A stretch of DNA of 54,743 nucleotides from IMG/VR virus record IMGVR_UViG_3300022562_001216, positions 1 to 54,743 of that record. One strand, 5' to 3'. Position 1 is the first letter of the stretch; each line of letters begins with the position of its first letter. The stretch is from a virus. This document shows positions 145 through 27,958 of the stretch, one piece after another. Position numbers and translations under genes: made by a program. The notes beneath the pieces are model-generated. The model was not told the origin of the DNA, did not search any database, and worked only from the letters and a program-made list of their open reading frames with translations.

Positions 145-3100
145 TTGACAAGGCCGATCTACCCCAACCGATCAAAGACGCGCTGTTAGCGGATATGGCA
201 AAGGCCTGGAAACAGGAAGGCGACCTGTTCAATCAGCCCCAATCAGAACCACAGGCTGAAGCACCCAAGCCCAAGCCCACCAAACCCAAGGCGCCAGAGC
301 CACCGACCCCAAGTCCTGCCAGTCCTGCCTTCAACCACTTCCACATCGATAAGCCGGAAGAGTTGGTGGGGGGTGGACAAGTGGCCCGCTTCAATAAAAA
401 CCAAAAGGCCATTGAAACCTATTTGGAGCTGAAAGACGCAGGCCGCCCAGCCACGCCGGAGGAGCAAGCCATTTTGGCCAGCTACACCGGTTGGGGCTCG
501 TTCGGTCAAGAGCTGTTCCAAGGCACCTGGGCCAACCCCAAGCCCAAAGAAAAATGGGAAGCCCGTGATGCCTGGCTGCGCCAACACCTGGGCCAGAGCG
601 AATGGGAAAGTATGCAACGCTCGATCACCAACAGCCATTACACCGATCCACCCACGGTGATGGCCATGTGGGATATGGTCAAGCGCTTGGGCTTCGACGG
701 GGGCCGGGTGCGCGAGCCCTCCATTGGCATTGGTAATTTCTTCGGCCTGATGCCGCGGGAGTTGAAAAACCGCTCGCAACTGGATGGCATTGAGCTTGAC
801 GAGATTACCGGCGGCATGGCGCAGATGATCTACCCGGACGCCAACATCCAAATCAAGGGCTATCAGGACTCCAAAACCCCGGATAACTTCTTTGATTTGA
901 TCATTGGCAACTGGCCGTTTGAAAACACCACCATTGCGGATCGGCGCTACAACAAGCTCAATCCCTTTGTGCATGATTACTTTTTCTTGAAAGCGGTAGA
1001 CCAGACCCGGCCTGGTGGCCTGGTGGTGGGGATCACGTCCAAGGGCAGCATGGACAAGGTGGATTCGACCATCCGCATGGAGTTGGCCAAGAAAGCCAAG
1101 CTGGTGGCGGCGTTTAGGCTGCCCACGGGGGCGTTCCAAGAGTACGCGGGCACCAAGGTCGTCACCGATATCATCATCCTCCAGAAGCGCCCAGAGCCCA
1201 TAGCGGGGGTGGTCGGGGAAGGCTGGGTGTTCACCCAAGAGCAGGCCTTTGGCGACAACAAGCTGAAAATCAACGAATACTTTGTCAACAACCCCGATAA
1301 AGTGCTGGGCAAAATGAGCTATGGCCACGGCACCACCCGCATGGGTGCTGACCTGGTGGTGGAGCGGCCCAAGGATATGAAACAAGCCTTGGCCGATGCG
1401 GTTAATTCCCTGCCCACCAATATCTATACCCGCAGTACGCGACCGCTGGCGGATTCTTACATTGCCAACCACACCGATGACCGTCAAAACGCCCTGGTGG
1501 AAAAAGACGGTGATTTTTATGTGGTGCTGGGCGAGTACATGCAGGAAGCCAATGAAGCCCTCAAATGGCGCATTGACAAGCCGAAAGAAGTGGCCAAGCG
1601 CAAAGACCAGCTCACCCGTCTGATTGCGATGCGTAAGCTTTACGGCAAGCTGATCGATGCGGAATTGAAGGGCACCGTGACCACTGAGCGTGAACAGCTC
1701 AACAAGGCCTACAAAGCGTTTGTGGACAAGTACGGACGCTTGAACGGCAAACCCAACGCCAACGGCAAGGTGGTGCCCTCCTGGGGCTTAAACTACCTGG
1801 CTAAGCTGTCTGAACCGTTTTACCCGGAGTTGGCGGCACTGGAGCGGCCCACTTTCGACAAAAAACGCAACGTCACCGGCTTTGAGCCGGTGGACATTCT
1901 CAGCAAAAGCACCATGCGCCGGGCCATGCGCATCGATGACCCGGACATTGCCGACGCCTATGTGCTGGCGCGCAACAGCAACGTTAACCCCAGTCTGGAA
2001 GAGATTGCCAAGTTAGCCAAGCAGCCCATCGAGGCGGTGCGGGCAGAGCTGGTGGACAAGGGCGCGGTGTTCGAGTTGCCGGGCGGTGATGTGGTGCCGT
2101 CCGATCTGTACCTGGCCGGTAACGTGCGCGAGAAGCTGCGCGATGCCAAGAATGCCGTCAGTGAGGGCATGAGCCAGTTGCAACACAACGTCGATGCCCT
2201 GGAAAAGGTGATCCCGGAGGACGTGCCCTATTACAAGATAGAAGCCAAAATGGGCGCAACCTACGTCACGCCAGAGCAATACACCCAATACATCGGTCAC
2301 ATGCTGGGGCTCAGTCCAGAGGAGGCGCCACGCTACGTCACCACCACCTACCGCCAAGGCCGCTGGAAAGTGGAACTCAACACAGAGGCGGATCGTCGGG
2401 TGGAGGCGCATTCGGGCTTTGGTTTGCCGGATGTGCCGTTTAAGCGCCTGGTCAATGCCGCGATGTCCAATCAGCGCATTACCATTCGCACCAAAGACGA
2501 CAAGGGCAATCTGGTGGTGGATGATCAGCTCACCGCAGAAGCCACCAGCAAGATCGATGAAATGCGCTTTAAGTTCGCCGCCTGGCTGTGGAGTGATCCA
2601 GAACGCCGGGTGCTGGTGGAGCGCGAATACAACGAGGTCATCAACGCTTACGCCGATGCCAGCTATGACGGTAGTTTCATGCGCTTTTCCGGCATGGCCT
2701 TAGCCCTGGGAGAAAGCGAGTTCAACCTGCGCAAACACCAAGCCGATGGCATTTGGCGGGGGGTGGCCACCCGCAAAGGTCTGTATGCCCATGAGGTGGG
2801 CACTGGCAAATCCTTCACCATTGCCGGCATTGCGGTGGAATCGCGCCGCTACGGCCTGGCACGTAAACCCCTGGTACTGGGCCACAACGCCAACGCCGCC
2901 AGCCTGGCGCGGGATATCCAGCAGATGTACCCCGGCGCCAAAGTGCTCTATGTGGACAACCTGGACAAGAAAAGCATTGAGCGCAACATCCGCACCATTG
3001 CCAATGACGACTGGGACGCGGTGGTGATGCCCCATTCCCTGATCGACAAGATCGGGTTCAGAAAAGAAACCCTGCTGGATCTGGCGCGGTTGGACATTGA

Positions 3101-6100
3101 AGCCATCATGGAAGAGTTGGCGGAAATGGATTTTAACCCCGAAGACGCCATGCTGATGAGCACCGAAGGCAGCTTTGAGACGGCTAAAGACGTAGACGCC
3201 GCCATGGAAGAGGCCAACAAAGCCATGAGCGGTAAGCGGGATATCCCCCCCACCGCCAAAGAGCTGGTGAAGCTGCGCAACCGGATCATTGCCAGCGTGT
3301 TTAAAGCCGCCCAGAGAGCCAGTGGTGAGAATGCCATTGCGTTTGAGGAGCTGGGGGTGGATATGGTGTTGGTGGATGAGGCCCATGAGTTCAAAAAGCC
3401 ACCGTTTGCCACCCGGATGCAGATGAAAGGCCTGCAAACTGCCGCCAGTGGCCAGTCAATCTGGCTCAAATTCATCACCGATTACATCCGTTCCACCAAC
3501 AACGGCTTCAATGTCCACTTGTTTACGGGTACACCGATCACCAACACCTTAGTGGAAATCTTCCACATGCAGCGTTACATCATGCAGGAAGAGATGCAAG
3601 CTGCGGGCATTGACCAGTGGGATGGCTGGTTTGGGGCGTTCGCCGCGGAAGTCGCGGATCTGGAGCTGACACCCACGGGTGAGTACGAGTTACAGACCCG
3701 CTTGGCCGCGTTTGTCAATGTGCCGGAGCTGCGGCGCATGATCGGCCAGTACATGGACGTGGTATTTGGCGATGAAATGCCGGAAATGCGGCCACGGCAA
3801 ACCCAAAACGGCAAAACCCTGGAAACCATTGAAACCGAAGCCGAGCGGATGGAATTGCTCAATGGTCGTACCGAAGGGGCCGATGATCGCCCCTACCGCA
3901 AAGTCATCAACGACACCGCGGATCTGACCCCAGAGCAGGAAAAAGCCTTCAAGGTGTTGCAGGACTACGCCCGCGACTGGGCCGAAATGGAAAAGCCGGC
4001 GCGACGGCGAGCCCAATTAGAGGGTGATCCCCGCTCACCCATTGTCACCGAAGGTTTGGCCGCTAAAGCCAGCCTGGACGTGCGTTTGATGTACGACTCC
4101 GACTATGCGGGCATGGAGGGCAAGACGCAGGATCACCCGAACAGCAAAGTGAGCCGGGTGGTGCGCAACGTCAAAGAGATCTATGACAGCCATCCCCTGG
4201 CCAACCAAGTGATTTTTATCGATCAAGGCTATTCGACCTCGACGGAGCGCAAACAAAACACGGATTTGATCATTGACGGCAAGCCGGTTAAAGAATCGGT
4301 TAAGATCCCGGTCTTCTCCACCGTGAAAGATTTGGTACTGCGCCTGCAACAAGCGGGCATTCCTGCCGAGCAGATTGCGGTGGTGGATGCCAGCGTCAAA
4401 CGGGCCGCTCGCAAAGAGGTGGCGGATCGCATGAACCGCGGTGAGCTGCGAGTGGTGATCGGCCAGTCGCAAACCTTGGGGGTGGGGGTGAACATGCAGA
4501 GAAACCTGCGGGCCATGCACCACATGGACGCCCCCTGGATGCCGGGCTTGCTGGAGCAACGCAATGGCCGCGGTTGGCGTCAAGGCAATCAATGGAACAC
4601 CGTGCTGGAGCACCGCTATCTGACGGATCGCATTGACGGTCGTCGCTGGCAAGTGCTGGCCATCAAGCAGCGCTTTATTCAAATGTTCATGCGCTCCAAA
4701 GGCGAGCTGCGGGTGATTGAGGGGGATGCGGCCAGTGATGACCAAGTGGACATCATGCAGACCTTTGCGGAAGCCGCGGGTGATCCCCGCATTCTGCTAC
4801 GGGAGAAAGCCAAGTCCAAGCTGGAAGGCCTGTACCAGAAACAACGCTTTCACAGTCAGGCCATTGCCGATGCTCACAGCAATATCAAAGAGTACCAGAA
4901 CAAGATTGCCGAACGGCAAGCGCAGATCGACGCAGAAAAACGCTCTCAACGCCCGGCCATTCTCAAGGCCTGGGTGGATTCGGTCAGCGGTAAGGCGTTT
5001 TCGTTCAACTACCCGGCTTTGAAGGAACCCATCACCGAGCGTAAGCAAGTCAACGAGTATGCCAAGGCCTTTGCCGAAAAAAACGTGCGGGTGGAAGCAG
5101 CGCCTAAGCTTTTTGGTGAGCTGGGTGGGCAGCAGATTTACATCGAACACCCAAAATATTCCGGTGAACCGCTGTTTACGGTGTCCTTTGAACTGGCCGA
5201 TGGCACTAGGTTAGGCTTTGAAACATTCCTCGACGTGGCCATGTTGGTGGATCGGGTGCGGCGATCCAGTGATTCGGACATTGCCTTTCACAATCACTGG
5301 ATCGAAGAGCACAAAGAATCCATCACCAGCCTGGAAAAAGTCACCAAAGAGCCGTTCCACTTGCAGGATCAGCTTGACGCCAAAGAGCGCGAACTGAAAG
5401 ACCTGGAAGACGACATTGCTCACAACCCGGTGGCGCCGCCTGCCTGGCTGCGATCCGGGGCGCCAGTGGATACGGAAGTGTTTAAGGGCAAACAGCCGTT
5501 TGTGGTCACAGGCCACCGTTGGAACAATGATGGCTGGTTCGTGGTGGCCGCTGATGCCAAGGGTCAAATGGTCATCCCCTACCTGGAAGCCAAGGACGCC
5601 CAAGGGATGCCGCTGTACGAGGAACGGGAGTTTGAACCCCCGGTGCGGGAAAAACCCGACAAGGAGCTTGGCGAGGCTGACAAGGTGCCCGACAAGAAGC
5701 TTGACGAGCCCGACAAGCCGGCTCAAGTCTCGCGCCTGGCCACTGAAACCAACCCCCGCGCTAGGCCGGAACTGATGCCACCAGTAGGCCGATTCAGCAA
5801 AAAACAAGCGACTCAAGCCAAGCCCATGAGCGCCGCAGAGGTGGGGGTGGCACTGGCGCCACGGGTGGCGGAACTGGGCGCCAATGTGCAGGTGAAGGTG
5901 GTGGATTCGGTGAAAAATTTGCCGAAAGCCGCCCTGGATCTGCTCAAATTCCGCGGCGACGTACAAAACCCGCGGGGTTTCTTCGATCCGGTGAGCCAGA
6001 AACTGTACATCGTGGCCGATCAGATTCATTCGCCCCTGGAAGCCCGGCAAGTGTTGGAGCATGAAGCGTTAGGTCACTTGGGGGTGGAAAGCCTGCTAGG

Positions 6101-9100
6101 GGACCAATTCACGCCGTTTGTGCGCGACGTGATGCGGTTGTACCGCTCCGGCAACAAAATTATCAACGAGGCCGCTACATCGATCATCCGGGACTATGGT
6201 GGCGACTGGAAGAATCTCACCAGCGAGGAGAAAGGCGCTGAAATCATCGCCAAGCTGGCCGAACGGCGAGCCAAGGGGGCTTCCTTCACCCGGCGCGTAC
6301 AGCAACTGTGGACCCGCATTGCCATGGCGGCTCGGCAAACCCTGCGCAAACTGGGCTTTGAGATTGGTTTCAGTGAGTATGAGGTCGCCTGGGTGCTGAT
6401 GCGGGCAGAAGATCGCCTCAAACACCGGGAGCCCTTGCCCATCACTGAGGGGGTGGGGCGTTTTGCCGCGGCCTCTAATCTGGACTGGCAGGATCGACAA
6501 AAGCAATTGATCGAAGACGTGAACAAGGGAATGCCTATTGATCGAGCGTTCCGCAAGCTGTTTGACGTGGCCGGCATGGTGGACGAGCACGGTGCCCTGA
6601 AGCGGCCTGACTGGGTGCCCGATGTGGTGGTGACGGCGTTTGAAAACTTCCTCAAATTCCTCAAAGACACCTATGGCCATGCCACCTGGTTGCATCCTGT
6701 GGTGGAAGTGGCCAAACGGGGTTTGATCGACCGCTATGGCCTGGATGAGGCGTATAAGGATCTGGATGCTAAGCGTCAAGCCCTGAAAAACCGCCTGTTG
6801 CGGGAGGGTGAGCGGTTCCTGACCCTGCTCAAAGAACGCCAAACCACCCGTGATGAGGCACAAGTTCTGTACGATATGCTGACGGGTCAGGCCGTGGGGA
6901 CCACCGAGCTGCAGGAATTGGCGGAACCCATCCGTGAGGCGATTCTGTCCATGGGCCGGATGGCGGTGGATCTGGAATTGATCAGTGAAGAGGCGTTCCA
7001 GCGCAATGCTGGCGCCTACCTGCACCGATCCTATGCCCGCTATGAGAAAAACGTCTCCACCTGGGCCACGCTGTGGAAGGCCAAGAACGGCAAAAAGCGG
7101 GTGAAACTGGAGGGCTCCGAACTCAAACACCGGGGTTACGAAATCCGCATCAACAAAGCCAAGGCCGCGGCACTGGGCAATTTGATCAACGGTAAGAGCG
7201 TGCAAGTGTTCCGGGTGCCGGGCAACAAGCACTACAAGTTTGGTCCCGTGGGCGCACCGCCAAAGAATCCAGCCTGGGAAAACAAGGGCGAGTTTGAGAT
7301 TCGGCGCGATAAGAGCGGCAAGCCCATCAGCCTGTGGCGTGACTGGACCAAGGCTGAGCGCGAGTCCATGGGCGAGATTACCGACGCTCGCTACGCGATT
7401 GCCAAAACCTACCAGCTCCTGGCCCATGACCTGGCCACGGGCCAATTCTATGAGGACATTGCGAAAAATCCCGATTGGGCACAGGACGAGGTAGATCCTA
7501 GCCTGGTGGTGAAAAAGACCGGGCGCCTGTCGAGCCTGGTGGATGACGGTGAGTGGGTACTGGTGCCCGATGACAAGATTGCCAAGAGCAATGCCAAGAA
7601 GTGGGGCAAGCTGGCGGGTAAGTACGTGCGGGTGGAAATCTGGCGGGATCTGAATGAAGTGGAAATGATGCAGCACGTCAATTTCTGGCGCCACTTGATG
7701 CGGTTCTGGAAATTGAACAAAACCGCCAGAAACGTGGTGGTCCACCTCAACAACGTCATGAGTAACCTGTTATTCGCGGATATGGCCGATGTGCGCCTGC
7801 GCGATATCAAGCAGGCCTTTATCTCCATGCGCGACAAGGACGAGTTCTATCAGATGGCGGTGGATCATCAGGCCTTTGGCAACGGCTTTGTGGAGAACGA
7901 GCTACGACAGGCCTTGTACGGCGACTTGCTGAAAGAATTGGAGCAGCAGGCCAACAACGACAAGGGCTTTTGGGAGAACGCCATTTTTAAAGCCGCGGGC
8001 AGCAATGAGTTTGTGCAGAAATTTGCGTTAATCGGCACTGCCATGGACAAAGCCTGGCATGGGCACCAATTGAAACAACCGAAAACCGTGCCGTTTACGG
8101 GGGTGCAGATTGAAAAGCTGGGCTTAAAACCCGCGGATCAGGCCATGTTGGACTTGTACCAGTGGGAAGACGAGTTTTTTCGGATGGCCGCCTACATTCG
8201 CCGCATGAGCCTGGGGGATACCCCGCAAGCCGCGGCAAAATACGCACGGGAGCAATTCCTCGATTACGACATTCGAGCCCCAGTGATCAATGTGTTGCGC
8301 AATTCGGTGTTGCCGTTTGTGGCTTACACCTATCGGGCGGTGCCGGTGATTGCCCGCTCGCTGGCGGCTCGCCCCTGGAAGATCCTGAAATACATGGTGG
8401 TGGCGGAGGCCTTGAACAGCCTGGGCTATGCCATGGCGCCGGGGGATGAGGACGAGGAACGCCGCTCGCTACGGGAAGACATTCAGGGTAAAACCTGGCT
8501 GGGGATACCGCGTATGATCCGGATGCCCGTTTTTGATCAGCACGGAGACCCGACCTTCCTGGACGTGCGCCGCTTCATTCCCGCCGGGGATATCTTTGAT
8601 ACCAACATTGGGCACCCGTCCGTGCCGATCCCGGCGCCGCTGCAATTCGGTGGGCCGTTAATGCTGGCCGCAGAGATGTTTTTGAACAAGGTGGGCTTTA
8701 CGGGGGATGAAATCAGCAACGAGCTGACGGACACCACCAGCGAGCGCTGGGCCAAAACCGCAAGCTGGGCGTGGAAAGGCATAATGCCCTCTGCGCCCTG
8801 GATACCAAAATCCTGGTACTGGGAAAAGATCAACACCGCCATCGATGGCGGGGTGGACCCACTGGGCCGAACCTACAGTGTGCCCGCGGCCATTGCCAGC
8901 TCAGTCGGTATCAAGGTCCAAGGTCAGAACGTGCGGCAAGGGTTTTACTACCACGAATTGGCCTTTGATCGCCGCGAGCGACAACTGAAGTCCGAGCAAA
9001 CGCAGACAGAACGTTTGTTCCGGCGTAATATGATTTCGGCAGATGAATTCAAGGAGTCGTCGGATACCCTGCGCCAAAAACTGTTGCAACTGAACAAGGA

Positions 9101-9134
9101 ACGGCGCAAAACCTTCACAGGAGCGGAAGACTAA
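1..9134 (+). CDS. Giant polyvalent virion protein, 3' part (DarB-like methylase-helicase, metallopeptidase, C-terminal LPD region)
   Basis: The frame is open from base 3 with no stop until TAA at 9132-9134, and continues the frame that leaves the window end (circular ORF 49874 to 9134, 4,619 aa). ATG195 has no ribosome binding site and is probably internal. Numbering below is for the full protein. Residue 1814 starts an EPSxGxGNF methylase motif I. Motif IV at 1879 reads NWPF rather than NPPF. An SF2-helicase Walker A (GTGKS, Lys2512), DEAH (2701) and QRxGRGxRQGN motif VI (3095) follow. HEALGH at 3596 is an HExxH zinc-peptidase motif. A C-terminal region near 4142-4166 resembles the large polyvalent-protein domain LPD38. 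Polyvalent proteins of this type (P1 DarB is the relative) are packaged and injected to protect incoming DNA; that role is inferred here. The gene ends the late block B transcript and its stop overlaps the next start (TAATG). Confidence 0.85.
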   Translation, partial: DWGGIQRGDLTYKQNTKLRDLEKRLAALAQEHSYDNRNAKGKALRKAIDKADLPQPIKDALLADMAKAWKQEGDLFNQPQSEPQAEAPKPKPTKPKAPEPPTPSPASPAFNHFHIDKPEELVGGGQVARFNKNQKAIETYLELKDAGRPATPEEQAILASYTGWGSFGQELFQGTWANPKPKEKWEARDAWLRQHLGQSEWESMQRSITNSHYTDPPTVMAMWDMVKRLGFDGGRVREPSIGIGNFFGLMPRELKNRSQLDGIELDEITGGMAQMIYPDANIQIKGYQDSKTPDNFFDLIIGNWPFENTTIADRRYNKLNPFVHDYFFLKAVDQTRPGGLVVGITSKGSMDKVDSTIRMELAKKAKLVAAFRLPTGAFQEYAGTKVVTDIIILQKRPEPIAGVVGEGWVFTQEQAFGDNKLKINEYFVNNPDKVLGKMSYGHGTTRMGADLVVERPKDMKQALADAVNSLPTNIYTRSTRPLADSYIANHTDDRQNALVEKDGDFYVVLGEYMQEANEALKWRIDKPKEVAKRKDQLTRLIAMRKLYGKLIDAELKGTVTTEREQLNKAYKAFVDKYGRLNGKPNANGKVVPSWGLNYLAKLSEPFYPELAALERPTFDKKRNVTGFEPVDILSKSTMRRAMRIDDPDIADAYVLARNSNVNPSLEEIAKLAKQPIEAVRAELVDKGAVFELPGGDVVPSDLYLAGNVREKLRDAKNAVSEGMSQLQHNVDALEKVIPEDVPYYKIEAKMGATYVTPEQYTQYIGHMLGLSPEEAPRYVTTTYRQGRWKVELNTEADRRVEAHSGFGLPDVPFKRLVNAAMSNQRITIRTKDDKGNLVVDDQLTAEATSKIDEMRFKFAAWLWSDPERRVLVEREYNEVINAYADASYDGSFMRFSGMALALGESEFNLRKHQADGIWRGVATRKGLYAHEVGTGKSFTIAGIAVESRRYGLARKPLVLGHNANAASLARDIQQMYPGAKVLYVDNLDKKSIERNIRTIANDDWDAVVMPHSLIDKIGFRKETLLDLARLDIEAIMEELAEMDFNPEDAMLMSTEGSFETAKDVDAAMEEANKAMSGKRDIPPTAKELVKLRNRIIASVFKAAQRASGENAIAFEELGVDMVLVDEAHEFKKPPFATRMQMKGLQTAASGQSIWLKFITDYIRSTNNGFNVHLFTGTPITNTLVEIFHMQRYIMQEEMQAAGIDQWDGWFGAFAAEVADLELTPTGEYELQTRLAAFVNVPELRRMIGQYMDVVFGDEMPEMRPRQTQNGKTLETIETEAERMELLNGRTEGADDRPYRKVINDTADLTPEQEKAFKVLQDYARDWAEMEKPARRRAQLEGDPRSPIVTEGLAAKASLDVRLMYDSDYAGMEGKTQDHPNSKVSRVVRNVKEIYDSHPLANQVIFIDQGYSTSTERKQNTDLIIDGKPVKESVKIPVFSTVKDLVLRLQQAGIPAEQIAVVDASVKRAARKEVADRMNRGELRVVIGQSQTLGVGVNMQRNLRAMHHMDAPWMPGLLEQRNGRGWRQGNQWNTVLEHRYLTDRIDGRRWQVLAIKQRFIQMFMRSKGELRVIEGDAASDDQVDIMQTFAEAAGDPRILLREKAKSKLEGLYQKQRFHSQAIADAHSNIKEYQNKIAERQAQIDAEKRSQRPAILKAWVDSVSGKAFSFNYPALKEPITERKQVNEYAKAFAEKNVRVEAAPKLFGELGGQQIYIEHPKYSGEPLFTVSFELADGTRLGFETFLDVAMLVDRVRRSSDSDIAFHNHWIEEHKESITSLEKVTKEPFHLQDQLDAKERELKDLEDDIAHNPVAPPAWLRSGAPVDTEVFKGKQPFVVTGHRWNNDGWFVVAADAKGQMVIPYLEAKDAQGMPLYEEREFEPPVREKPDKELGEADKVPDKKLDEPDKPAQVSRLATETNPRARPELMPPVGRFSKKQATQAKPMSAAEVGVALAPRVAELGANVQVKVVDSVKNLPKAALDLLKFRGDVQNPRGFFDPVSQKLYIVADQIHSPLEARQVLEHEALGHLGVESLLGDQFTPFVRDVMRLYRSGNKIINEAATSIIRDYGGDWKNLTSEEKGAEIIAKLAERRAKGASFTRRVQQLWTRIAMAARQTLRKLGFEIGFSEYEVAWVLMRAEDRLKHREPLPITEGVGRFAAASNLDWQDRQKQLIEDVNKGMPIDRAFRKLFDVAGMVDEHGALKRPDWVPDVVVTAFENFLKFLKDTYGHATWLHPVVEVAKRGLIDRYGLDEAYKDLDAKRQALKNRLLREGERFLTLLKERQTTRDEAQVLYDMLTGQAVGTTELQELAEPIREAILSMGRMAVDLELISEEAFQRNAGAYLHRSYARYEKNVSTWATLWKAKNGKKRVKLEGSELKHRGYEIRINKAKAAALGNLINGKSVQVFRVPGNKHYKFGPVGAPPKNPAWENKGEFEIRRDKSGKPISLWRDWTKAERESMGEITDARYAIAKTYQLLAHDLATGQFYEDIAKNPDWAQDEVDPSLVVKKTGRLSSLVDDGEWVLVPDDKIAKSNAKKWGKLAGKYVRVEIWRDLNEVEMMQHVNFWRHLMRFWKLNKTARNVVVHLNNVMSNLLFADMADVRLRDIKQAFISMRDKDEFYQMAVDHQAFGNGFVENELRQALYGDLLKELEQQANNDKGFWENAIFKAAGSNEFVQKFALIGTAMDKAWHGHQLKQPKTVPFTGVQIEKLGLKPADQAMLDLYQWEDEFFRMAAYIRRMSLGDTPQAAAKYAREQFLDYDIRAPVINVLRNSVLPFVAYTYRAVPVIARSLAARPWKILKYMVVAEALNSLGYAMAPGDEDEERRSLREDIQGKTWLGIPRMIRMPVFDQHGDPTFLDVRRFIPAGDIFDTNIGHPSVPIPAPLQFGGPLMLAAEMFLNKVGFTGDEISNELTDTTSERWAKTASWAWKGIMPSAPWIPKSWYWEKINTAIDGGVDPLGRTYSVPAAIASSVGIKVQGQNVRQGFYYHELAFDRRERQLKSEQTQTERLFRRNMISADEFKESSDTLRQKLLQLNKERRKTFTGAED

Positions 9135-10388: not shown

Positions 10389-10697
10389 TTACCTGCACGT
10401 TGCGATTAATTTTTTGCCCTGATTCGTGATTTTGTACCAGCGGTGTGAATCGCCGTTTTTGCTTGCTCGATTGGGGTTTTCAATGCATTCGATCAAGCCA
10501 AGATTGAGCAACCGTGTTACCGGGCGATCCAGCGATGATTTACTCGCATCACGTTGGCCGTAGATGATTTCGCATAAATCGCTCTTGCCGCTTTCGGGGT
10601 GGTGGTAGATTTGCAGAAACACAATTAAATCCAGAATGCTGAGCCGTGAACCCGCTTTCATTTCAAAAAATGCCATGGCCAGTTTGAGTGTATTCAT
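10389..10697 (-). CDS. Winged-helix transcription regulator, 102 aa
   Basis: ATG10697 is chosen because AAAAGGAGGAATC stands directly before it; a longer frame reaches upstream to 10772 without a ribosome site. The sequence has a helix-turn-helix pattern typical of small winged-helix regulators (SILDLIVFLQIY, SSLDRPVTRLLNLGLIECI, RWYKITNQGKKLI). It probably controls its own operon and early phage or plasmid genes. MarR-like is the nearest description, but the exact family is uncertain. Confidence 0.65.
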   Translation of the reverse strand: MNTLKLAMAFFEMKAGSRLSILDLIVFLQIYHHPESGKSDLCEIIYGQRDASKSSLDRPVTRLLNLGLIECIENPNRASKNGDSHRWYKITNQGKKLIATCR

Positions 10698-10736
10698 GAT
10701 TCCTCCTTTTCTAGGCCGCCTATGCGGCGTAGAAAC

Positions 10737-14610: not shown

Positions 14611-14614
14611 CTCA

Positions 14615-14715
14615 CCGGGTTTTTTGTCGTAAAACCGGGTTTTTTGTCGTAAGCACCGGGTTTTTTGTCGTAAGCACCGGGTTTTTTGTCGTAAAAACCG
14701 GGTTTTTTGTCGTAA
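14615..14715 (+). repeat. Five origin iterons
   Basis: CCGGGTTTTTTGTCGTAA occurs five times, starting at 14615, 14635, 14656, 14677 and 14698. The 20-21-bp period puts all copies on the same face of the helix. This is the expected binding array for the adjacent Rep_3 initiator. Confidence 0.95.
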
Positions 14716-25725: not shown

Positions 25726-25978
25726 CCGGGCAATCGATCCTGAGTTGCTGGCGCGGATTGTGGAGCGGGTGGCGGCGCAGGACTACGCCACCATGGATAT
25801 GCTGCGGGCGCTGGAGCAACAGGTGGCGTTTTTGAAAGATATGATGGTCAATCACGATGATGCCGCGGCCTTGCGCTATCGCTCCCAAGCCATCGGCCTG
25901 TTGGAGTTCATTAAAACCGTGCAGGTGGCGCCAGTGCTGGAGGACGATGATCGACTGGTCAATTCCTACCTGGCATAA
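25712..25978 (+). CDS. Hypothetical protein following portal, 88 aa
   Basis: AGGAGG precedes ATG25712, which overlaps the portal stop. The product is acidic and helical (ELLARIVERVAAQDYATMDM). Last gene of late block A, ending directly on the terminator hairpin. Possibly a virion assembly factor; unrecognised. Confidence 0.65.
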   Translation: MDSSNRAIDPELLARIVERVAAQDYATMDMLRALEQQVAFLKDMMVNHDDAAALRYRSQAIGLLEFIKTVQVAPVLEDDDRLVNSYLA

Positions 25979-26005
25979 AAAAACCCCGCTTGCGCGGGGC
26001 TTTTC
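25977..26005. terminator. Bidirectional rho-independent terminator
   Basis: CCCCGC (25984-25989), loop TTGC, GCGGGG (25994-25999). On the minus strand the stem is followed by seven Ts (25983-25977), a strong terminator for the small RNA. On the plus strand the T-run is shorter (CTTTTC), but it still follows the last gene of late block A. Confidence 0.85.
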
Positions 26006-26124
26006 GTTTACCTAACCCCAGTAACTGGGGAAACCTTAACGATGACCTAATTACTTTCCTAAGCTTTCAGTCATTTTTTGAACCATCCCCAAGAATTGGG
26101 GAACACTTCTGGCCGGAAGTTGCA

Positions 26125-26212
26125 CCGCTCGAACCGCCTAATGGCGGGTAACTCATAACCCCTCATGGGGATTCGTAACTTTGTTTTCTAAGCCGTCTAT
26201 TCGACGGGTAAC
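26125..26212 (-). repeat. Type I-F CRISPR-repeat-like unit and degenerate copy, 60-nt step
   Basis: The unit at 26212-26185 reads 5' GTTAC, stem CCGTC, loop GAATA, stem GACGG, then CTTAGAAA: 28 nt, the same partition (5-5-5-5-8) as type I-F repeats and the same last eight bases as the E. coli I-F repeat. By my alignment 20 of 28 positions match it, and four of the eight differences form two compensating stem pairs. A second unit (26152-26125) starts with GTTACCCG exactly 60 nt later, the I-F repeat-plus-spacer period, but lacks the handle. Confidence 0.55.
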
Positions 26213-26231
26213 AGTTGAACGGTGCCGGAGT

Positions 26232-26260
26232 ATGATGCAAAAAACCGCATTGTGAGTCAA
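26232..26260 (-). promoter_or_regulatory. Sigma70-like promoter of the small RNA
   Basis: TTGACT (26260-26255), 17-bp spacer, CATCAT (26237-26232). The predicted start near 26225 coincides with the first base of the closing helix of the RNA. It lies just after the stop of the RHH gene. Confidence 0.65.
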
Positions 26261-26266
26261 GCGTGT

Positions 26267-26512
26267 TCATTCCGTCATTTCAAACATGGCTTTGGTCGCT
26301 TTGCGGGTAAATTGTTTGTCTGTGTAGATGATCGAACACATGCCCCGGATCAAGCGCGAGCGGGTAATGCGTTTTTCCGGGTGCTTCTGGCGCAGTTCAT
26401 TGATGACCAAATCCAATTGATCTTCTTGAAAAGTCGTCAGTCGGATGGTGGTGGGATTGACCGTTTCGCTGCGGTTCTCGTTCGACAGTGTAATGGATCT
26501 TGGTTTACGCAT
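26267..26512 (-). CDS. parB: RHH centromere-binding partner of ParA, 81 aa
   Basis: After a basic, disordered N-terminus comes a ribbon-helix-helix: strand NPTTIRLTTFQ, helix EDQLDLVINELRQ, helix ITRSRLIRGMCSIIY. It overlaps the parA stop by 8 bp. Small RHH proteins encoded after parA are the centromere-binding and repressor components of type Ib partition. The symbol marks the role; it is not homologous to large ParB. The 11-bp repeats in the parA promoter are its likely sites. Confidence 0.75.
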   Translation of the reverse strand: MRKPRSITLSNENRSETVNPTTIRLTTFQEDQLDLVINELRQKHPEKRITRSRLIRGMCSIIYTDKQFTRKATKAMFEMTE

Positions 26513-27404: not shown

Positions 27405-27734
27405 TTACAGGCAGAATAGGTCGAGCAGGACACCGCTAATCTGCGGGTGGTGTTTTGCATCTAGCATTCCGAACGGACGGAGCAGTCTGGTTTGGTCGAG
27501 GGTGCGCAGTTGATCAAGGGCCACTTCACCGACTTGGCCTTTGTGATCTACCACCACTCGGCTAGACCAGTTTCGTAGTGTGCGAGTCATCGGGGCAACG
27601 ATAACTGTACGCACGCGGCGGTTGAGCACGTCTGGTGATAGCACTACCACCGGACGCTGCCCGGCCACTTCCGCCCCCTGGGTGGGGCTCAATTGCACCC
27701 ACCACACTGAAAAACGATGTATTACCACGTCCAT
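27405..27734 (-). CDS. MazF/PemK-type toxin, 109 aa
   Basis: MazF-fold signature: WWVQLSPTQGAEVAGQRPVV, VRTVIVAPMT, a GEVALDQLRTLD segment. Such toxins are mRNA interferases that stop growth when the antitoxin is lost, which stabilises a plasmid. Its start lies inside the antitoxin gene (13-bp overlap), the usual coupled order. Confidence 0.9.
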   Translation of the reverse strand: MDVVIHRFSVWWVQLSPTQGAEVAGQRPVVVLSPDVLNRRVRTVIVAPMTRTLRNWSSRVVVDHKGQVGEVALDQLRTLDQTRLLRPFGMLDAKHHPQISGVLLDLFCL

Positions 27735-27958
27735 TCCTCCTCATCCCACTGAGTGGGTTCGTCGTCTAACAGCATTTCATGGTCATCCAAGCCACCGGCA
27801 AACGCTTCGGGTTTGTCCCAGTCGTGCCGGGGGTGTCTGACCACGCGCTTGATTTCCACTTCAATCTCATCACCGCTGTGGGCGTCAAGTTCGGCCAAGA
27901 TTGCAGCGGGGTAGACATTGCCTACGCTGTTGCCGATTTTGCGCAGTTTTACGATCAT
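27722..27958 (-). CDS. MazE-type antitoxin (AbrB fold), 78 aa
   Basis: N-terminal swapped-hairpin AbrB domain (VKLRKIGNSVGNVYPAAIL) and an acidic C-terminal tail (DDEPTQWDEEEW) that would block the toxin. It should repress its own promoter through the palindrome at 28089-28107. The start overlaps the stop of a 35-aa membrane peptide. Confidence 0.85.
   Translation of the reverse strand: MIVKLRKIGNSVGNVYPAAILAELDAHSGDEIEVEIKRVVRHPRHDWDKPEAFAGGLDDHEMLLDDEPTQWDEEEWTW

Follow-up and report, generated by a model that had tools for sequence, protein, structure and literature searches.

An intergenic stretch of a plasmid-like phage genome with the features of an RNA anti-CRISPR cassette that joins type I-F, I-D and probably I-E repeat mimics

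RNA anti-CRISPRs (Racrs) are virus-encoded, intergenic mimics of CRISPR repeats that have a Cas6 stem-loop and no cas genes, and the published ones are each described as a solitary repeat belonging to one subtype (Camara-Wilpert et al., 2023, PMC10651486). Functional tests have covered Racrs of types I-C, I-E, I-F and V-A, with no I-D among them (PMC10651486). RacrIF1, carried by a Thiocystis violascens prophage, is a substrate that Cas6f binds and cleaves, and it nucleates an aberrant complex of Cas6f and Cas7f; its C6 and G20 are essential for activity, its handle is not, and the upstream product measures 70-76 nt (PMC10651486). The published search with SRUFinder drops repeats that cluster within 100 bp (PMC10651486), and because of this rule a whole layer of Racrs with several units may have been overlooked.

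The stretch described here lies in a complete IMG/VR record (IMGVR_UViG_3300022562_001216) of 54,743 bases, all of which was analysed and is called the window below. A 144-base direct repeat at both ends suggests that the record is probably circular, and a Rep3 initiator, a ParA gene and a portal gene are present, as in a phage-plasmid. Where the ParA operon and the portal-side genes converge, the minus strand from 26225 to 25979 is an ORF-poor run of hairpins that ends in a terminator. A preliminary description, made from the letters alone, had read it as a structured, Racr-like RNA with several CRISPR repeat types; the identity of one unit (U2) and the 60-nt pitch of two others (U1 and U3) support this reading. 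We consider it probable that the stretch encodes an RNA anti-CRISPR cassette directed against several subtypes, namely I-F, I-D and probably also I-E. The features, in order along the minus strand, are as follows.

26232..26260, minus strand: weak sigma-70-like promoter candidate TTGACT-17-CATCAT (score 9/12; expected start ~26225)
26121..26225, minus strand: domain I (U1, U2 and U3), multi-branched, with a 9-pair closing helix GCACCGTTC/GAGCGGTGC (-41 kcal/mol, z -4.93)
26185..26212, minus strand: U1, type I-F repeat mimic GTTACCCGTCGAATAGACGGCTTAGAAA (Rfam CRISPR-DR4, 30.6 bits)
26180..26184, minus strand: linker ACAAA, 5 nt, from U1 to U2
26152..26179, minus strand: U2, exact type I-D CRISPR repeat GTTACGAATCCCCATGAGGGGTTATGAG (28/28 identity)
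26133..26151, minus strand: U3, I-F-like hairpin without a handle, GTTAC-CCGCC-ATTA-GGCGG (stem start 60 nt past that of U1)
26105..26120, minus strand: small hairpin ACTTCCGGCCAGAAGT (library test p 0.12; its 3' arm overlaps the first bases of U4)
26078..26106, minus strand: U4, I-E-like repeat GTGTTCCCCAATTCTTGGGGATGGTTCAA with a 7-bp stem (best library match I-E)
26006..26036, minus strand: U5, hairpin CCCCAG-TTA-CTGGGG, 71 nt after U4 (library test p 0.98)
25978..26001, minus strand: intrinsic terminator GCCCCGCGCAAGCGGGG-T7, a GC hairpin followed by T7, GCCCCGCGCAAGCGGGGTTTTTTT

It is the I-D match of U2 that carries the multi-type reading. This unit, the strongest of the stretch, had been missed by the preliminary description, which named I-F and I-E only. 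Its 28 nt are those of the repeats of Ca. Thiothrix singaporensis, Thiorhodospira sibirica and a Guaymas gammaproteobacterium, and in the first of these the array adjoins a type I-D operon with cas6d (E 2e-109), cas10d, cas7d, cas5d and cas3d. A blastn comparison of the region with plasmids returned one match, in 40 places, which is the CRISPR array of the Thiothrix fructosivorans plasmid pTfr153, where the operon comprises type I-D csc2, cas6, cas4, cas1 and cas2. The pattern GTTACGAATCCCCATGNGGGGTTATGAG occurs in 11 stretches across 85,462 species genomes, and these are with few exceptions arrays of Thiothrix, other Thiotrichaceae and Thiorhodospira; among 2.9 million viral contigs the I-D repeat was found only in a near-identical relative of the phage. 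Chance is excluded as the origin of the U2 identity.

The same unit bears on the host. Both I-D repeats and I-F matches occur in Thiothrix eikelboomii, T. fructosivorans and two further genomes, and since Thiothrix genomes carry both, a combined I-D/I-F inhibitor would make sense for this host group. When 557 spacers from Thiotrichales arrays were compared with the phage, no protospacer was found and nothing exceeded the reversed-sequence control, so that it is U2 by itself that points to the sulfur bacterium Thiothrix or a close relative as the host.

The proposed resemblance to type I-F is borne out by U1, which aligns to CRISPR-DR4 along its full 28 positions with an E-value of 1.8e-6 for the genome, at a score under the gathering threshold of 35 bits. 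A scan of 4227 Rfam families gave no other CRISPR match in the window, CRISPR-DR2 included. The unit has a 5-bp stem closed by C6-G20, as in RacrIF1, a 5-nt loop and an intact 8-nt CTTAGAAA handle. When it was compared with 58 Thiotrichales repeats assembled as a library, the nearest was the I-F variant ATTAACCGCCGTATTGGTGGCTTAGAAA, located beside cas3f, csy2, csy3 and cas6f, and U1 agrees with canonical I-F repeats at about 20 of 28 positions. U3 retains the I-F stem feature only, with a 4-nt loop and no handle. The head GTTACCCG is common to U1 and U3 and occurs three times in the whole window, and the stems, CCGTC/GACGG in U1 and CCGCC/GGCGG in U3, differ by a compensatory change; the earlier remark that stems vary in sequence and keep their pairing is thus true between these two units. 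By alignment, U3 and U5 have no match in the 58-repeat library, and 64 Thiotrichales genomes hold no copies of U1, U3, U4 or U5 at up to three mismatches. Plain local alignment scores in the range of U1 and U4 (29-31) are also reached by chance at other places in the window, where no hairpin is present, and the assignment of these two units is therefore based on structure, handle and position.

The stem starts of U1 and U3 are exactly 60 nt apart, which is the period of I-F arrays. I-F-like hairpins occur at a density of 0.00022 per nt, and one within 60+/-1 nt would be expected 0.00065 times by chance; neither this pitch nor the exact I-D repeat is explained by chance. Among viral I-F cassettes of 2-5 units, 71 of 127 intervals are 60 nt long, and the last unit has at most 5 of the 8 handle letters in 42 of 70. 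Since the stem of U3 starts 60 nt after that of U1, the I-D repeat sits within the "spacer" of a putative I-F decoy crRNA, and the 33-nt pseudo-spacer between the two units consists of ACAAA and the complete I-D repeat. We infer from this arrangement that U1 to U3 mimics an I-F crRNA of 60 nt in total, made up of an 8-nt handle, the 33-nt pseudo-spacer and a 3' hairpin.

Viral mini-CRISPR arrays (PMC11656645) have the same spacing of I-F repeats as U1 and U3, and the stretch could be a virus-borne I-F mini-array (U1-spacer-U3) with a spacer derived from, and targeting, the I-D arrays of the host or of a rival element. Such an array would fit the 60-nt pitch and the 33-nt spacer, and the spacer does hold an entire I-D repeat. 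Its seed end, however, is ACAAA, which lies outside the repeat, and because these letters precede only 1 of 629 distinct I-D repeat copies, and that copy lacks a CC PAM (TTTTTTACAAA), generic targeting of I-D arrays is unlikely. The spacer matches no other viral contig (the near-identical relative being the only one with the I-D repeat) and no site in its own genome. In contrast to the published mini-arrays, the "spacer" is the repeat of another system and not a piece of a related virus, and the last unit, U3, has no handle; U4 and U5 would be left unexplained. On this evidence we regard a mini-array as quite improbable. A CreA-like crRNA that guides the host Cascade to repress a phage promoter is hardly credible: the U1-U3 segment could give an I-F crRNA with a handle, and a precedent exists in CreA (PMC10097628), but the phage genome contains no seed of at least 7 nt with a CC PAM, and the best partial match elsewhere is 20/33.

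The I-E resemblance stands in moderate form. Type I-E repeats have a GTGTTCCCC head, a 7-bp stem and a ATGAACCG-type handle; U4 has the head, the stem and the ATG, but its handle has diverged to ATGGTTCA. Diverged handles are also seen in I-E-like units of other viruses (contig L211 and Streptomyces phages). The best library match of U4 is I-E at p 0.0033, the floor of the test, with no hairpin-preserving shuffle equalling it, and GTGTTCCCCA and TGGGGATG of U4 recur in an I-E repeat of the same bacterial family. Over 2.63 Mb of loci, the head/tail pattern of I-E was confined to two I-E arrays, one other single site and U4. Taken together, U4 is a probable I-E repeat mimic, and U5, which is 71% identical to U4 over 31 nt, is possibly an I-E-like end unit without a handle. 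The repeat types first proposed are retained, I-F for U1 and U3 and I-E, as probable, for U4, and I-D is added for U2.

As an RNA, the 254-nt minus strand has a predicted fold of -90.9 kcal/mol (z -3.6 against shuffles). Domain I accounts for a fold that no shuffle equalled, whereas domain II (26120-26005; z -0.74) is not better than its shuffles. The closing helix announced in the preliminary description is present, with nine pairs: its arms, GCACCGTTC at 26225-26217 and GAGCGGTGC at 26129-26121, enclose domain I, and it begins 7 nt after the -10 box. The claim of a terminator likewise held, in that a GC hairpin and T7 close the stretch at 26001-25978, and the longest ORF on the minus strand of the stretch has 35 aa; read in reverse, the terminator can also serve the plus-strand genes. 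The promoter claim fared less well. TTGACT-17-CATCAT is indeed found at 26260-26232, 19 nt upstream of U1, yet sites with a 9/12 score are common by chance (3 were found in 1 kb, against about 0.7 per kb expected), and for these reasons a minus-strand promoter upstream of U1 is plausible and is put no higher than that. Low-scoring Rfam matches in the stretch (RsmY and others) were driven by the terminator, fell far under their thresholds and were set aside.

These folds bear on another explanation, that only U1 and U2 are functional, or that the units are relics of host repeats, with the remainder being ordinary hairpin-rich intergenic sequence. We think this rather unlikely. The library holds no match for U3, U5 or the middle hairpins, and the failure of domain II to outdo its shuffles agrees with such an account; on the other hand, the perfect U2, the intact handle of U1, the exact pitch of 60 nt and the closure of domain I look like signs of maintenance and not of decay.

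The neighborhood of the stretch suggests a further explanation, in which it serves the adjacent ParA operon as DNA, either as a centromere for partition or as an operator. The motif CGGGTAA, which occurs 13 times in the window, is found four times in one orientation within 220 bp here (26145, 26205, 26304 and 26361), and these copies are possible operator or partition iterons. Two of them, though, are the heads of U1 and U3, and the other two are coding, as part of the small gene before parA. The product of this gene (26267-26512), which separates ParA from the stretch, matched no Pfam or PHROG family. A partition site would also leave the 28/28 I-D repeat, the I-F handle and the 60-nt pitch unexplained, and we hold it to be very unlikely.

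If the stretch encodes a multi-subtype decoy RNA, a transcript of about 250 nt would offer repeat mimics to the Cas6 nucleases of different host systems and to their backbone proteins, with Cas6f engaging U1 and U3 (through the 3' hairpin), Cas6d engaging U2 and Cas6e probably engaging U4. In a type I-F cell, Cas6f would cut after U1 and after U3 and release a 60-nt RNA with a true CUUAGAAA 5' handle, the 33-nt pseudo-spacer and a 3' hairpin, and this decoy crRNA would occupy Cascade and guide it nowhere. In a type I-D cell, Cas6d would bind or cut the I-D repeat that fills the pseudo-spacer. Since the decoys would engage both I-F and I-D Cas proteins, the phage could be shielded in hosts with I-D, I-F or both. 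Transcription and processing of the cassette RNA, and titration of Cas proteins by it, are steps that we infer from the order and structure of the units. With a start at 26225, the product upstream of U1 would be about 33 nt long, as against 70-76 nt with RacrIF1, a shortness that may shift the weight to the decoy crRNA (U1 handle through U3) or to transcripts reading through from the ParA operon.

That one phage RNA disarms I-F, I-D and I-E at once, with the I-D repeat nested as an I-F pseudo-spacer, is a conceivable but tentative reading to which we give somewhat less than even weight. If true, it would provide, as far as the literature searched goes, the first demonstrated Racr against several subtypes and the first against I-D. 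Here at least two subtypes are joined, unlike in published Racrs, and one repeat is nested in the pseudo-spacer of the other. U1 to U4 lie within 135 nt of DNA, and so are not solitary in the sense of having no other repeat within 100 bp, but they are different repeats. No multi-subtype Racr is described in the literature searched; U2 alone may already be in the supplementary lists of PMC10651486. A compound RNA against several subtypes would mean that phages build modular RNA inhibitors matching multi-CRISPR hosts such as Thiothrix, and the pairing of repeats with Cas6 proteins makes each arm directly testable with purified proteins.

No independent orthologue of the cassette was found. Searches with the ParA and portal proteins found one contig, 99.99% identical, with other portal relatives at only ~27%, and phages and plasmids yielded no relatives of the cassette except the Thiothrix array. 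Matches of the region to Pseudomonas plasmids were rejected as cassette relatives; they fall at the terminator hairpin, by a gene end.

Cassettes of a single subtype are found in other viruses, for instance with I-F units at five viral loci and with I-E units in the Streptomyces phages Piccadilly and Eklok. These resemble the present stretch in their tandem repeat-like hairpins, their often handle-less last unit and their varied stems that still pair; they differ in that all recognised units within each are of one subtype. A scan of viral contigs for I-F units showed that cassettes of 2-5 units are frequent, 36 with a 60-nt pitch and 33 with other pitches, mostly 41-54 nt. Stem variation was seen in 12 of the 33 cassettes with other pitches vs. 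3 of the 36 with a 60-nt pitch (Fisher p 0.008), and the last handle was lost in 25 and 17 of them, respectively (p 0.026). Two pitch classes thus appear, at nine numbered loci among others, as if the cassettes of other pitches, mostly 41-54 nt, were a distinct class of multi-unit decoys. Six I-E-like hairpins in tandem (CCCCGC-NNNN-GCGGGG, with tails resembling GGTCC) occupy one intergenic gap in Piccadilly and Eklok, at about positions 275-600 of the two loci (L284 and L285), and form a candidate poly-I-E decoy RNA of these cultured phages.

No clear second cassette of mixed subtype was found among the viral contigs. Contig L211 is a possible case: its reverse strand (1-560) carries an I-E-like hairpin at the end of the contig and, ~150 nt further on, six I-F-like units followed by a terminator. 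An I-F handle followed by an I-E head gave 28 matches, which on inspection were ordinary sequence and not pairs of repeats; an I-E unit followed by an I-F stem gave one, an I-E mini-array with a spacer that merely resembles an I-F stem; and an I-F handle followed by an I-D head was seen only in the present phage and at one chance site.

The scanned ORFs of the window (part of the total, by Pfam, PHROGs or PADLOC) include no cas gene, in agreement with the preliminary description, and the sole PADLOC-listed Cas-associated match among them is a DEDDh nuclease. Elsewhere in the genome, a second I-F-like hairpin, CGCC-GCATA-GGCG-GCCTAGAAA, lies at 10708-10735 on the minus strand and agrees with the 3' part of I-F repeats at 19 of 21 positions. 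It lies within the 5' leader of a small gene at 10389-10697, whose product weakly matches PadR-like winged-helix proteins, directly before the ribosome site, and could possibly place that gene under Cas6f- or Cascade-dependent control. A further counter-defence gene lies at 195-9134; its product of 2979 aa strongly matches DarB-like antirestriction, DNA methyltransferase and helicase families. Adjoining parA is a MazF/PemK-like toxin gene (27405-27958, minus strand), with a small gene directly upstream that is probably its antitoxin, and five tandem 21-bp repeats at 14613-14715, next to the Rep3 initiator gene, are probably the replication iterons of the phage-plasmid.
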